Virus record (IMG/VR): IMGVR_UViG_3300017731_000086
Coordinates: 1 to 20,319 of that record
Source of the DNA: a virus
Reading direction: 5' to 3' (one strand)
DNA length: 20,319 nucleotides
The notes beneath the pieces were generated by a model. The model was given only the letters and a program-made list of their open reading frames with translations. It did no database searches and was not told the DNA's origin. Below are positions 16,293-19,914 of the stretch, in pieces (within the stretch, counting starts at the first letter, position 1; each line of letters begins with the position of its first letter). The position numbers were made by a program, and so were the translations under genes.

Positions 16293-16682
16293 TCAGTTAT
16301 AACTTACTGGTTCATAGTTTTCATCTTGATCCATCTTCTTAAATTCTTCCCTGTAATGTTTTGCTATTTCTTTTCTTAACTGCTTGTTGGTCTTCATCAG
16401 GACTTGCCACTTCTCTCTCAGCATATCCATGTGTCCCTCGCCTAAAGTCTCTTCCAACCACGCTGTAAACTCCAGTGGGTTAGCAGTGAACTGCATGTGA
16501 CAGTAATGACACAGACATACTGCATTGTCCATTGACCACCTAACTGACTTAGCCGCCCTTCCATAGATGTGAGCGCACTCCATCCTGCCTTCTACTTTTC
16601 CACAGCTTTCACACACATGACCTGCTTTCTTCCTAACTACATCACTAAACCACTTGTCTGCCGCATCACGTTTTATTGCCAT
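16293..16682 (-). CDS. HNH-type nuclease
   Basis: This 129-residue protein contains a clear HNH fold: C24-x2-C27 (HVCESCGK), ECAHIYGR with H38, then DNAVCLCHYCHMQF with N53, C58, C61 and H62. The zinc knuckles and the His-Asn-His order are intact. I chose ATG 16682 (AAAGGA 8 nt upstream) over an upstream ATG at 16712. It overlaps the NinB-like gene by 17 nt. In lambda the ninB-ninG pair encodes recombination functions, so this protein may act as a junction or branch nuclease, but it could equally be a packaging-associated or homing-type HNH enzyme. Only the nuclease fold is well supported. Confidence 0.75.
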   Translation of the reverse strand: MAIKRDAADKWFSDVVRKKAGHVCESCGKVEGRMECAHIYGRAAKSVRWSMDNAVCLCHYCHMQFTANPLEFTAWLEETLGEGHMDMLREKWQVLMKTNKQLRKEIAKHYREEFKKMDQDENYEPVSYN

Positions 16683-17109
16683 TCTTAAAATCCTTTGTAG
16701 GGAATGTAACATAAAGTTTGTACTTCTCTGCTAAGTGTCTTGTTATTGTTTCAGCTACTAACGATACTTCATCTGTTGATAACTGCCTACTACTTTCATC
16801 CTTCTCAGGATACATAGCGCGCTGTACTGTCATCCATATCAAGTCCATTACACTGCGGTCAGTCCACGGTGCTTCAATATCTTTTGTTAGAACAGGACTG
16901 CTTATCATGCAAGGAAACCCTGCATCATTGCACCGCTTGGCTATCTCCTTACAGAATACCCACATAGCATTGTTTTGCTTAATACTTCTAGGCTTACCTA
17001 GCTTGTATTCAAACGTAATGTACTTATGCTTCTCATACATTTGCTCGACAAATTCTTTATACATTGTGAGTTTCTTGGGACAGTTGACAGTCCAAGCGGC
17101 ACCATTCAT
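16666..17109 (-). CDS. NinB-like recombination protein
   Basis: This 147-residue protein has the NinB/Orf-type layout: an N-terminal beta strand pair (MYKEFVEQMYEKHKYITFEY), KPRSIKQNNAMWVFCKEIAK (39-58), a DRSVMDLIWMTVQRAMYP helix and STDEVSLVAETITRHLAEKY (111-130). Lambda Orf (NinB) binds single-stranded DNA and SSB and helps load recombination proteins. The RS-KQNN motif and the Thr-x-Glu/Asp helix near the end are the strongest clues. ATG 17109 overlaps the upstream stop (ATGA); a second ATG at 17064 is possible. The HNH gene follows. The family call is by eye. Confidence 0.65.
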   Translation of the reverse strand: MNGAAWTVNCPKKLTMYKEFVEQMYEKHKYITFEYKLGKPRSIKQNNAMWVFCKEIAKRCNDAGFPCMISSPVLTKDIEAPWTDRSVMDLIWMTVQRAMYPEKDESSRQLSTDEVSLVAETITRHLAEKYKLYVTFPTKDFKNGNKT

Positions 17110-17667: not shown

Positions 17668-18405
17668 CTAAAAAAGTTTGGCTTGTTGCCATTCGCATGT
17701 GAACCCGCAATCAGCAGGCATATCATCTTTGAACCTTCCCCTATTTGGATCTAGCTCATCTAAAAAAACTGCACCAATCTTATCTTTGTTGATAGCGTGT
17801 CCTATCTCTCTCTCTAAGTTAGCCATTCTATCAAAAGCATCTGGGAAATCTTTGCGTATCTTGTTCCAGTAACCCATGCCACCTTTAACACATCCTATGC
17901 AGTTGTTGTTATTGTATCCAAGTTTATACATTGCAGGTATTTCTATCTTCATATCCTTCACAAACTCAATGCAATCTTGCTTGGTATACCCTTGCTCCAT
18001 GAGTATAAAGTCAACGTCAACATCATTATTAGAATCTATGAATCTATTTGCCCTAGACTCTTCTTCTACTGTGTATCCAAATACCTGTATATCAGTTGGC
18101 TGTTGGTAGTCCTTTCTTACATTTTTCTTTAAAATCATAGTGCAAGGCGCACCAGTCTGACCTTTTATGAACTTTCTATCTCTAAACACCTTGTAGATAG
18201 AGAAGTCTTTTCGCTCATCGCCAATAATCTTTACTGGCAGTTCGCATTTGTCTGCGTATTCATTAAGAAATCTAAGGTTATCCTCATGCTCCTCTGCAAC
18301 TCGACAGTAAACTGCTTCAAACTTTTCTTCCTTGTACTTTTCTTTGGCTAGGTATGTGGCGAATGCGCTTGCCGCCCCACAGCTAAACCACGATACAACT
18401 CTCAT
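17668..18405 (-). CDS. PAPS-reductase-like / PP-loop ATPase family protein
   Basis: This 245-residue protein belongs to the adenine-nucleotide alpha-hydrolase (PP-loop) group. The N-terminal strand and loop RVVSWFSCGAASAFATYLA (2-20) is a variant of the SGGxDS pyrophosphate-binding loop. TGAPCTMILKK (84-94) and VFGYTVEEESRANRF (108-122) are typical of phage PAPS-reductase-like proteins, and NNCIGCVKGGMGYW (167-180) has a Cys-x-x-Cys pair (C169, C172) near C88. Two more cysteines (C233, C237) lie at the C-terminus. The cluster suggests a metal or Fe-S site. Phage members have no settled substrate; sulfur transfer or base/nucleotide modification is possible. It sits between the replication initiator and small HTH genes. 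Confidence 0.75.
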   Translation of the reverse strand: MRVVSWFSCGAASAFATYLAKEKYKEEKFEAVYCRVAEEHEDNLRFLNEYADKCELPVKIIGDERKDFSIYKVFRDRKFIKGQTGAPCTMILKKNVRKDYQQPTDIQVFGYTVEEESRANRFIDSNNDVDVDFILMEQGYTKQDCIEFVKDMKIEIPAMYKLGYNNNNCIGCVKGGMGYWNKIRKDFPDAFDRMANLEREIGHAINKDKIGAVFLDELDPNRGRFKDDMPADCGFTCEWQQAKLF

Positions 18406-18422: not shown

Positions 18423-19133
18423 CTAGTTAGCCCATGATCTATCAGTCAACGCTACTTCAATATCGCGCTTCTTGATTTGTGCGGGCTGTTTGATTTGTGT
18501 AACTACCTTTTGTTCAACTTCATCTTCCCACCTTGCATTGTTTAGATAGGTTGACGCATGAGGAATGAATGTTTTGTTAGCATCACTCCACTCGCCATGT
18601 TTAATCCTCAATGCAATGTTCTCAGCTATCATCTTTACAGTATCGTCATTTAGTTTGAGTTTATCCCATGCTTTCCTGGCTTGTGCCTTGCCAACCTTTC
18701 TTGGGTAAACAGTCCAGAATGATTCAAAATGATCTATATTATTAACTGTAATATTAGATGTAGTATTAACTGTATTATTATCCTTAAACTTTTCTTTAAT
18801 ACCCCCATTAACTTTTCTTTGTGGGGTATTTAACTTTTCTTTAATAGGGTCATTAACTAATCTTATATACCTATTTAAGATTTGTTTAGTACCCCCATCC
18901 TGCTCTAGCTCAATGCTGACGTAGCCTGCGTCTTTAAGGCTACCTATCCATTTACTGATAGATACCTTGCTGACGTTATATAGTTCTGCAAAGTATCCGT
19001 TAGTTGCCCAACAATATCCTTTCTCATTGCAAAGTGCAGTGATCTCACCATATAAAAGTTTGGCGTTAGGTGTTAGACTCTCATCGTATCTGACGTTAGC
19101 AGGGATGATTGCGTAGTAACCTTTCTTATTCAT
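18423..19133 (-). CDS. Replication initiator with HTH domain (lambda O / DnaD-like arrangement)
   Basis: This 236-residue protein has three parts. Residues 1-80 contain a winged helix (LTPNAKLLYGEITALCNEKG, WATNGYFAELYNVSKVSISK, LKDAGYVSIE), as in phage replication proteins. Residues about 81-135 are a low-complexity Asn/Thr/Lys linker. Residues 136-205 carry the C-terminal module FWTVYPRKVGKAQARKAW, then FIPHASTYLNNARWEDE, seen in many phage initiators and helicase loaders. The DNA for the linker holds the repeats described separately, an arrangement like lambda gene O. The ATG at 19133 has AGGAG 7 nt upstream and overlaps the methyltransferase stop by 8 nt. No helicase or polymerase gene is in view, so it likely recruits the host replisome. 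Confidence 0.75.
   Translation of the reverse strand: MNKKGYYAIIPANVRYDESLTPNAKLLYGEITALCNEKGYCWATNGYFAELYNVSKVSISKWIGSLKDAGYVSIELEQDGGTKQILNRYIRLVNDPIKEKLNTPQRKVNGGIKEKFKDNNTVNTTSNITVNNIDHFESFWTVYPRKVGKAQARKAWDKLKLNDDTVKMIAENIALRIKHGEWSDANKTFIPHASTYLNNARWEDEVEQKVVTQIKQPAQIKKRDIEVALTDRSWAN
18733..18898. other. Putative replication origin inside the initiator gene
   Basis: The iteron array (18784-18898) is followed, in the direction of the gene, by a stretch of nearly pure A/T (18733-18783, for example TATTATTAACTGTAATATTA) suitable as an unwinding element. The order within the gene is N-terminal domain, iterons, AT-rich DNA, C-terminal domain, the same as lambda ori in gene O. AATACCCC (18798-18805) and GGGGTATT (18823-18830) form an inverted repeat within the array. 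Origin function is inferred from structure and analogy. Confidence 0.6.
18742..18898. repeat. Iteron-like direct repeats with 22-23 bp period
   Basis: On the + strand, units beginning TTAA(A)CTTTTCTTT-TA recur. Their AAC/AAG cores start at 18787, 18810, 18832, 18855 and 18877 (spacings 23, 22, 23, 22). The first three share AACTTTTCTTT exactly. The fifth (AAGATTTGTTTAGTACCCCC) matches the first in 18 of 22 positions by my count. Two weaker TTAACT units follow at 18742 and 18766. Spacing of about two helical turns is typical of initiator-binding iterons. Confidence 0.7.
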
Positions 19134-19914
19134 TTGCCGCTCCTTGTTGTAATCCTTTGAAAATATGCGAAATCACATCTACAGTCCATCCATTGCCTAT
19201 CATTTTATATCTTTGCGTGTTCGATACACCGTCAGTATAATTTTTTGGAATTGACTGTAGCGTTTCACAGTCTGTAGGTGTTAATTTATCTTTTAAGTCT
19301 TTTGATTTTAAAGGCACATTATGACCACCTGTACCCATATTAGCTGTCAAGCATGGGCTAACGCCAGACTTATTCTCTCTAAAATATGTTCTTCTCCATT
19401 GATAAAAGTTACCTGACCAATCTGGTCTTTCTGGCAAAGACTCTAAAGGTATATTTGTCCAATAAAGTCTTTCTCTATTTTGTTGTACAAAAAGATCACT
19501 GTTAATTAATATTGGATTAACACCTAAAATCTCACTAATAACATCTTGTGATTCTTGCTTCATTTTTACATTTTCTAAAAGAAAGTATTTAGGATTACAC
19601 TCTTTAACTAGTCGAGCGTATTCAAAAAATAGTTTTGATCTTGGGTCATCGAAGTTAAGTCTTTTACCTGCATAGCTGAACCCCTGACAAGGTGAGCCAC
19701 CCATGATTAAATCAATCTTAATACCATCTAATGATTCAGGGTACATAATATCTTGTACATCTCCTAAATGGATGGTGTCTGGATAATTTTGTTTAGCTAC
19801 TTGGATGGCGTGTTTATCTATCTCAGATGCAAAGTATTTGCCAACCTCGATCCCCGCTCTTTCGAGTGCGATTCTTCCGCAGCTCATGCCATCAAACAAA
19901 CTTAAAACATTCAT
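19126..19914 (-). CDS. C5 cytosine DNA methyltransferase (orphan)
   Basis: This 262-residue protein contains the ordered motifs of C5 cytosine methyltransferases. Motif I is LSLFDGMSCG (4-13, AdoMet binding), and SEIDKHA is at 30-36. Motif IV is GGSPCQGFS with catalytic C76, motif VI is LENVK with E114, and motif VIII is QNRERLYW (145-152). A short target-recognition region spans about 160-210, then LTPTDCETLQ (211-220) and motif X GNGWTVDVI (241-249). The FDGMSCG form resembles phage DNMT3-like enzymes. It is complete, with no restriction endonuclease beside it, so self-protection against host restriction or gene regulation is more likely than a full R-M system. The target site cannot be read from sequence. 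It overlaps the initiator gene by 8 nt. Confidence 0.9.
   Translation of the reverse strand: MNVLSLFDGMSCGRIALERAGIEVGKYFASEIDKHAIQVAKQNYPDTIHLGDVQDIMYPESLDGIKIDLIMGGSPCQGFSYAGKRLNFDDPRSKLFFEYARLVKECNPKYFLLENVKMKQESQDVISEILGVNPILINSDLFVQQNRERLYWTNIPLESLPERPDWSGNFYQWRRTYFRENKSGVSPCLTANMGTGGHNVPLKSKDLKDKLTPTDCETLQSIPKNYTDGVSNTQRYKMIGNGWTVDVISHIFKGLQQGAANE

Follow-up and report, generated by a model that had tools for sequence, protein, structure and literature searches.

A putative lambda-like replication origin in the linker codons of a phage winged-helix initiator gene, and a residue-to-base pattern across its family

The stretch of viral DNA analysed here (20,319 bp, hereafter the window) carries an array of five repeats in the linker codons of a replication initiator gene, and judging from its sequence this array is very probably the replication origin of the phage. 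The most likely reading is a putative intragenic origin of the lambda type, bound by the winged-helix HTH_36/PHROG 270 initiator that the same gene encodes. In-gene origins are already known from lambda O, pSK41 and the pPR9 domain swap, and the window origin alone would be an ordinary replication device; the interest lies in the family pattern. In-gene iteron origins are known from few systems, and the 273 distinct sequences collected here let a binding code be read by comparison. The features concerned are as follows.

18423..19133, minus strand: replication initiator gene, 236 aa, with winged-helix N-domain, disordered linker and helical C-domain (profile matches and AlphaFold2 model)
18927..18968, minus strand: recognition helix, residues 56-69 (helix in the model, at the position of a recognition helix)
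18963-18965, minus strand: V57, proposed specificity residue (N-domain column 53, top pair of the MI scan)
18951-18953, minus strand: K61, proposed specificity residue (N-domain column 57, second pair of the MI scan)
18875..18888, minus strand: iteron 1, TAAACAAATCTTAA, weak, encoding the end of the wing
18853..18866, minus strand: iteron 2, ATAAGATTAGTTAA, weak
18830..18843, minus strand: iteron 3, TAAAGAAAAGTTAA, flank GACCCTAT
18808..18821, minus strand: iteron 4, CAAAGAAAAGTTAA, flank ATACCCCA, in a frame different from that of iterons 3 and 5
18785..18798, minus strand: iteron 5, TAAAGAAAAGTTTA, flank GGGGGTAT
18771..18779, minus strand: AT box 1, AATAATACA, 5 bp from iteron 5
18759..18767, minus strand: AT box 2, AATACTACA
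18747..18755, minus strand: AT box 3, AATATTACA
18720..18779, minus strand: AT-rich tract, presumed unwinding element, 18% G+C (base composition)
18426..18731, minus strand: C-terminal domain, residues 135-236 (phrog_9327 matches 117-215, phrog_9474 matches 123-218)
16666-17109, minus strand: NinB-like gene, downstream of the initiator (Pfam/PHROG profile matches)
16293-16712, minus strand: NinG-like gene, downstream of the initiator (Pfam/PHROG profile matches)

The initiator matches PHROG 270 'replication initiation protein' in a profile search (E 1.1e-45) and Pfam HTH_36 (PF13730; E 3.1e-12, 46.5 bits against a cut-off of 25). Its AlphaFold2 model (mean pLDDT 70, pTM 0.39) comprises a winged-helix N-domain whose wing strands reach residue 92, a low-confidence linker at residues 99-129 (pLDDT below 50) and a helical C-domain. 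The protein had been described, from the letters alone, as not visibly O; this stands in Pfam, where it matches HTH_36 and gives no match at E <= 1 to Phage_rep_O (PF04492), to which lambda O itself matches at 5.7e-36, but not among PHROG families, since the window protein and lambda O are linked by common O-like families such as phrog_678 and phrog_345. A direct profile comparison with lambda O returned no match, and neither did Pfam RepA_N (PF06970) at E <= 1. In a Foldseek search of the PDB with the model no match reached E 0.001; the first was the Rep-DNA complex 5kbj (E 6.5e-3), the initiators 4pql, 4pt7 and 4pta were also matched, and 5kbj and 4pql are what we take to be RepA_N proteins. 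VIA-align recovered many winged helices at Z 8-9, general ones scoring equally high, and is uninformative beyond the fold, while a PDB sequence search with the N-domain found further winged helices that bind DNA, along with designed or unrelated chains, and no replication initiator by name. Other C-domains occur behind a similar linker in three family members (L031, L034 and L035, C-terminal sequences compared); because these C-termini differ and the linker is nearly the same, it appears that N-domain and array move as a pair.

The initiator is flanked by a PAPS-reductase-like gene (17668-18405, phrog_424), which is not a P-type loader, and by a C5 DNA methylase gene (19126-19914) that overlaps the initiator start. 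The NinB- and NinG-like genes lie downstream of the initiator, as in a lambda early operon. No helicase-loader gene was recognised among the scanned window genes, and it is possible that the loader is encoded outside the 20,319-bp record; among 20 named phage records, 7 show a DnaC-like loader or replicative helicase annotated directly after the initiator, unlike the window. The near relatives L004, L009 and L014 show divergent flanking genes resembling SSB, a YqaJ-type exonuclease and an annealing protein (by eye). The C-terminal codons of the window initiator contain two head-to-tail 18-bp direct repeats, 83% identical, at 18464-18499.

The five 14-bp repeats of the array start 22, 23, 22 and 23 bp apart (linker offsets 5, 27, 50, 72 and 95), the first of them about 240 bp into the initiator gene. 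The sequence-only reading had listed five repeats at this spacing, and their cores, taken at the first TTAA base on the minus strand, lie at 18787, 18811, 18833, 18856 and 18878, at most 1 bp from where it had put them. Tandem Repeats Finder reports 18787-18858 with a period of 23 and a score of 81. Neither the 400 synonymous recodings drawn from early-gene codon usage nor the 400 drawn from all-gene usage (best 62 each) attain the array score of 64, nor do any of 400 codon permutations (best 54) or of 870 other window segments (best 53). A single two-mismatch site at 18118 is the only further iteron copy within the window, and Rfam and tRNA scans gave no match. The core AAAGAAAAGTTAA encodes IKEKLN in one frame and QRKVN in another. 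In the L003 group (L003 4001-4711) iterons 3 and 5 have exchanged their GGGGGT and GACCCT flanks as compared with window positions 18785-18843, the 14-bp cores of iterons 3-5 being the same as in the window despite the swap.

Homologues were collected at 436 loci besides the window, whose own copy (L044) was dropped, in viral and genome contigs, many of them one contig fetched repeatedly; the set is a biased sample because each scan gave its best 80 at most. All 437 loci hold the N-domain, as expected from the search design, and they collapse to 273 distinct N-domain and linker combinations. By record titles the family is found in genomes of several phyla, and a plasmid search with it yielded 20 records. 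Of the 273 distinct genes, window included, 253 gave a call of a palindromic array, and the search for homologues with the same linker and no repeats, proposed with the original reading, turned up no such case: the window's recognition helix is absent from all 20 genes that gave no call, 10 of which form one group with the helix VAKSTIQTWL. These 20 are left out of all counts based on 253. The repeats are imperfect palindromes of the form N5-AAAW-N5' (5 bases, a 4-base A-tract and 5 bases), the A-tract positions being 79-92% A in units close to their gene's seed. Arrays of only two units occur in 24 of the 253 genes and of three in 33; the 856 unit intervals measure 22 bp in 285 cases, 23 bp in 319 and 24 bp in 185, so that 604 are of 22 or 23 bp. 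The final information-weighted caller is blind to the helix sequence and replaced earlier callers that mis-registered in AT-rich tracts; the replacement was made after seeing the earlier output listed by recognition helix, and thus its choice was not blind, and some of its calls, e.g. in L022, are visibly off register. Upstream of the units, G:C pairs are found 4-6 bp before them as CC or GG, seldom A or T (at -5 to -3, CCT at 0.38 and GGT at 0.21); because the CC and GG strands are interchangeable there, minor-groove or shape reading is suggested.

Conservation of the array is at the level of DNA. In eight distant relatives, which were selected for keeping the window's iteron type, codons for the same residue are identical to those of the window in 171/192 cases (89%) in the array and 65/72 in the AT tract, against 148/425 (35%) in the N-domain and 53/135 in the C-domain. 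Three other groups (20 relatives) likewise show higher identity in the array than in both domains, with 510/521, 26/35 and 109/115 array codons against 809/955, 44/112 and 86/193 N-domain codons; the first of these pairs of counts comes from 14 near relatives. Silent sites in the array are frozen. Units occupy at least two reading frames in 231 of the 253 genes, or in 209 of 238 when only units before the AT box are counted, whereas a protein-level repeat would keep one frame. Among 117 representatives of these 253 genes, each set against 40 recodings, 87 score above all 40 of their own and 30 do not, while 109 lie above the 95th percentile of N-domain controls. The view that DNA and protein functions share this sequence is thus borne out, by the frozen silent sites and by one repeat core being read in two frames.

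The neighboring tract had been called an A/T-only stretch; it is indeed AT-rich, with only 6 of the window's 20,260 60-mers lower in G+C than 18720-18779, but nowhere in it do A and T alone extend beyond 11 bp. Two weaker units placed by the same reading toward this side coincide with a different element, the AATAHTACA box, of which the tract has three copies (starting at 18747, 18759 and 18771) at 12-bp spacing. Our caller also picked two weak AT-side units (24-bp spacing, offsets 119 and 143), and some of the units called inside AT tracts, these two included, are probably not iterons. The window contains six AATAHTACA matches against 1.3 expected, the others lying at 1180, 4526 and 17460. 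Across the family the box is present in the linkers of 235 of the 253 genes with a called array and absent in 18; the 225 nt after the HTH in the 253 genes hold 585 matches, as against 1 in 128,934 nt elsewhere in those genes, whereas recoding would lead one to expect about 121. It lies on the coding strand, with 1 match on the other strand, and because it is in frame in 580 of the 585 cases the encoded NNT motif may have a protein role. In the 215 genes selected for this motif, Asn is written AAT in 98% of cases (elsewhere 69%) and Thr ACA in 76% (elsewhere 34%). Of 60.9 weighted genes, 39.9 have the first box starting 5 bp past the preceding unit and 7.8 have it at 17 bp.

Two AATAATACA boxes occur together at no fewer than 120 loci of viral contigs, and among the matches listed for the pair, 149 fall in 113 distinct longest ORFs. 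The N-domain is encoded by 84 of these; the other 29 listed include, by eye, Asn/Thr-rich proteins and at least one truncated initiator. Locus L520 encodes a different predicted HTH-like protein outside the N-domain profile, with TDNNTDNNT and paired AATAATACA boxes. The GC-richer Pseudomonas phage Skulduggery has both palindromes and boxes, and its relative Cruim01 palindromes without the box. In lambda itself ACTATTACA, one mismatch from AATATTACA, is found at 39130-39138 (L438 631-639), 11 bp after iteron 4, and the ori96 deletion (39139-39153) begins directly after it (PMC6022878); the DNA being AT-rich, this match may be due to chance.

Specificity residues were sought by an MI scan of 92 N-domain columns against 5 half-site positions, with 80%-cluster weights (effective number 79.6) and 60 permutations. 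The top pair couples column 53 (window V57) with half-site base 2 (z 15.8) and the second couples column 57 (window K61) with base 4 (z 9.8). Lower ranks are taken by helix columns 51, 52, 54 and 56, by columns 42 and 73 outside the helix, and by columns 82, 87, 89 and 90, whose signal proves nothing because their codons overlap the first repeats. In weighted counts, base 4 is C with Arg in column 57 (23.2/29.8) and A with Lys (11.9/15.8) or Asn (9.4/10.4), while base 2 is G with Arg (13.5/13.8), Glu (7.7/9.2) or Lys (6.0/9.7) in column 53 and A with Val (9.6/11.0); Thr there is mixed (T 7.9/14.0). With whole clusters left out, residue 57 predicts base 2 correctly at 0.69 (majority 0.40, nearest relative 0.26) and residue 61 predicts base 4 at 0.73 (majority 0.47, nearest relative 0.42).

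This co-variation is also seen between close relatives and along the tree. In sister pairs base 2 differs in 34/48 when column 53 differs against 15/51 when it is the same, and base 4 in 34/45 against 17/52 for column 57. The crossed comparison of column 53 with base 4 gives 26/48 against 21/51 (p 0.23), that of column 57 with base 2 gives 34/45 against 23/52 (p 0.002), and pooled non-helix columns show a weaker effect (0.63 vs 0.45 and 0.54 vs 0.43). On a tree of 119 representatives, built with the helix columns left out, 18 of 26 base-4 changes match an Arg61 change in branch as well as direction (null mean 3.7, with at most 9 in any of 2000 draws), 13 of 25 changes pair Val/Ile57 with A at base 2 (null mean 2.2) and 20 of 33 pair Arg/Lys/Glu57 with G (null mean 5.5); the null values are descriptive, because both the Arg61-C test and the grouping of residues (R/K/E, V/I) were picked after viewing the MI tables. 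As crossed controls, Val/Ile57 shares any branch with base 4 in 2/26 (mean 2.2), and Arg61 shares branches with base 2 in 10/33, above its null (mean 4.8, p 0.004). Exceptions among the representatives are 9 of the 41 with Arg61, in which base 4 is not C, and 4 of the 78 with another residue there, in which it is, the residue-base association being a statistical one in these sequences. L022 and L023, which have the window-type C-domain, carry Arg in place of K61 and keep V57; read manually from their GGGTAT or CCCTGT flanks, the caller having mis-registered L022, their units are AGGCG-AAAA-TGTTA, AGGCA-AAAT-TGTTA, AGGCA-ATTC-TGTTA and TAGCA-AAAT-TGTTA (middle units were too degenerate to count), base 4 being C on either side in contrast to the A of the window.

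A check set of 20 named phage records was selected for host variety, its rules being written after the records had been scored, and it overlaps the main set in that L559 shares its helix, and almost its whole linker, with L187. At least three repeat units are found in 13 of the 20, and the other 7 (two units or no chain) were not counted. Of these 13 phages, 9 fall under the base-2 rule (R, K, E to G; V, I to A), which is right in 8, and 10 under the base-4 rule (R to C; K, N, T, S to A), which is right in 9; L567 fails both. The box is present in 11 of the 13 and in 0 of the 7 others.

The arrangement resembles several known systems. The succession of domain, iterons, AT-rich tract and domain that had been likened to lambda is real, and the repeats are palindromic with a central A-tract as in lambda, whose ori, inside gene O as here inside the initiator gene, consists of inverted repeats 18 bp long, of hyphenated symmetry and with adenines as the joining bases, ahead of an AT-rich region of 39 bp (PMC6022878). 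Iteron spacing is 20, 24 and 23 bp in lambda and 22-23 bp in the window, and both have the AT-rich tract directly downstream of the iterons and NinB- and NinG-like genes nearby. In contrast, the lambda N-domain is Phage_rep_O and that of the window HTH_36, the dyad is 6+5+6 in lambda iteron 1 (read from the lambda sequence) and 5+4+5 in the window, and only in lambda is the initiator followed by a P-type loader gene. The RepA_N initiator of pSK41 may be likened to the window in its central in-gene Rep boxes, dispensable linker and winged-helix N-domain, as may its Rep-box tract, which is A+T-rich with bending (PMC5703833); the window protein lacks the Pfam RepA_N match, although its first Foldseek PDB matches are plasmid initiators. 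In pPR9 the pSK41 N-domain and origin region are replaced by one with a pfam13730 N-domain, and the mini-replicon replicates and is compatible with pSK41 (PMC5703833). The window shares with such hybrid initiators the pfam13730 N-domain, there exchanged along with the origin region, while they differ in having a pSK41-type C-domain and residing on a staphylococcal plasmid rather than in a phage record. Within the literature searched, this working replicon is the best support for the N-domain family (PMC5703833). In the PLE satellites of Vibrio cholerae the RepA_N domain of RepA and the origin co-vary, the C-domain is conserved and the iterons are semi-palindromic; that origin is intergenic, unlike the intragenic one of the window, and the passages of the paper at hand contain no residue-to-base code (PMC8263062). 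HTH_36 proteins have been noted in early regions of some lambdoid phages, iterons going unmentioned in the part of the paper available (PMC8951638). A limited literature search, which lacked most subscription papers and older work on lactococcal and staphylococcal phages, found neither the residue code nor the AATAHTACA box, which is weak evidence of novelty, and no phage-origin paper was among the matches listed for the box letters.

Based on these observations we propose that each palindromic A-tract iteron would be occupied by a dimer of the N-domain, in whose recognition helix residue 57 would read half-site base 2 and residue 61 base 4. Once loaded, the array could then bend the DNA and open the adjacent AATAHTACA tract, where one strand would be held, and the C-domain would recruit the helicase-loading machinery for the origin to fire. 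For dimer binding at the palindrome, opening of the tract and recruitment of the helicase the models are lambda O (PMC6022878, PMC7466680) and plasmid Rep proteins (PMC4081077), the latter binding iterons and one DUE strand at once (PMC4081077).

Other accounts of the array are conceivable. The repeats might be initiator binding sites for autoregulation or incompatibility, through titration or handcuffing, with the origin elsewhere; the co-variation of the recognition helix is after all the behavior of a binding site and not of origin firing, and iterons may also regulate copy number (PMC5703833). We consider this improbable, as the array lies well inside the gene, promoter-like sites in the region, like terminator-like ones, do not exceed the chance number of shuffled sequence, the preferred 5-bp distance to a conserved AT-rich box is as for an unwinding element, and the swap of pfam13730 domain and origin is functional in pPR9 (PMC5703833). 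Still less probable is a degenerate or inactive remnant with replication starting at another site. The 20,319-bp record is probably a fragment, so there may be other origins, and iterons 1 and 2 are weak, but the linker DNA is identical in L004-L006, and selection on the array looks current because the 14 near relatives keep its codons better than those of the N-domain. The least probable account makes the array a charged flexible tether repeated at the protein level, with the DNA repeat a by-product: the linker is predicted to be disordered and its residues do recur (IKEK.N), yet the units stand in two frames, synonymous recoding lowers their score and silent sites are frozen. As the sole cause such a tether is ruled out by the two-frame reading and the silent-site conservation. 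An intragenic origin bound by its own initiator remains the preferred reading.

For the family as a whole we see an even chance that it constitutes a self-labelled library of protein-DNA recognition, in which one coding sequence would hold both a reader and its cognate palindromic sites. Residues 57 and 61 would set half-site bases 2 and 4, Arg61 going with C at base 4 and hence G on the other strand, Arg/Lys/Glu57 with G and Val/Ile57 with A at base 2, and AATAHTACA, mostly 5 bp from the last iteron, would be a specificity-independent, general element for strand-specific single-strand capture or unwinding. Were this so, iteron specificity could be predicted from protein sequence and the origins of unknown phages found by motif alone. 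The code would be testable on any family member and would supply predicted origins for uncultured phages; the same reading would explain how one linker encodes both DNA sites and protein, and offers a candidate unwinding motif. In the Lactobacillus phages phiLdb, Lc-Nu and Ld3 (L565, L568 and L576) the HTH domain and the following replication protein are annotated as separate ORFs.
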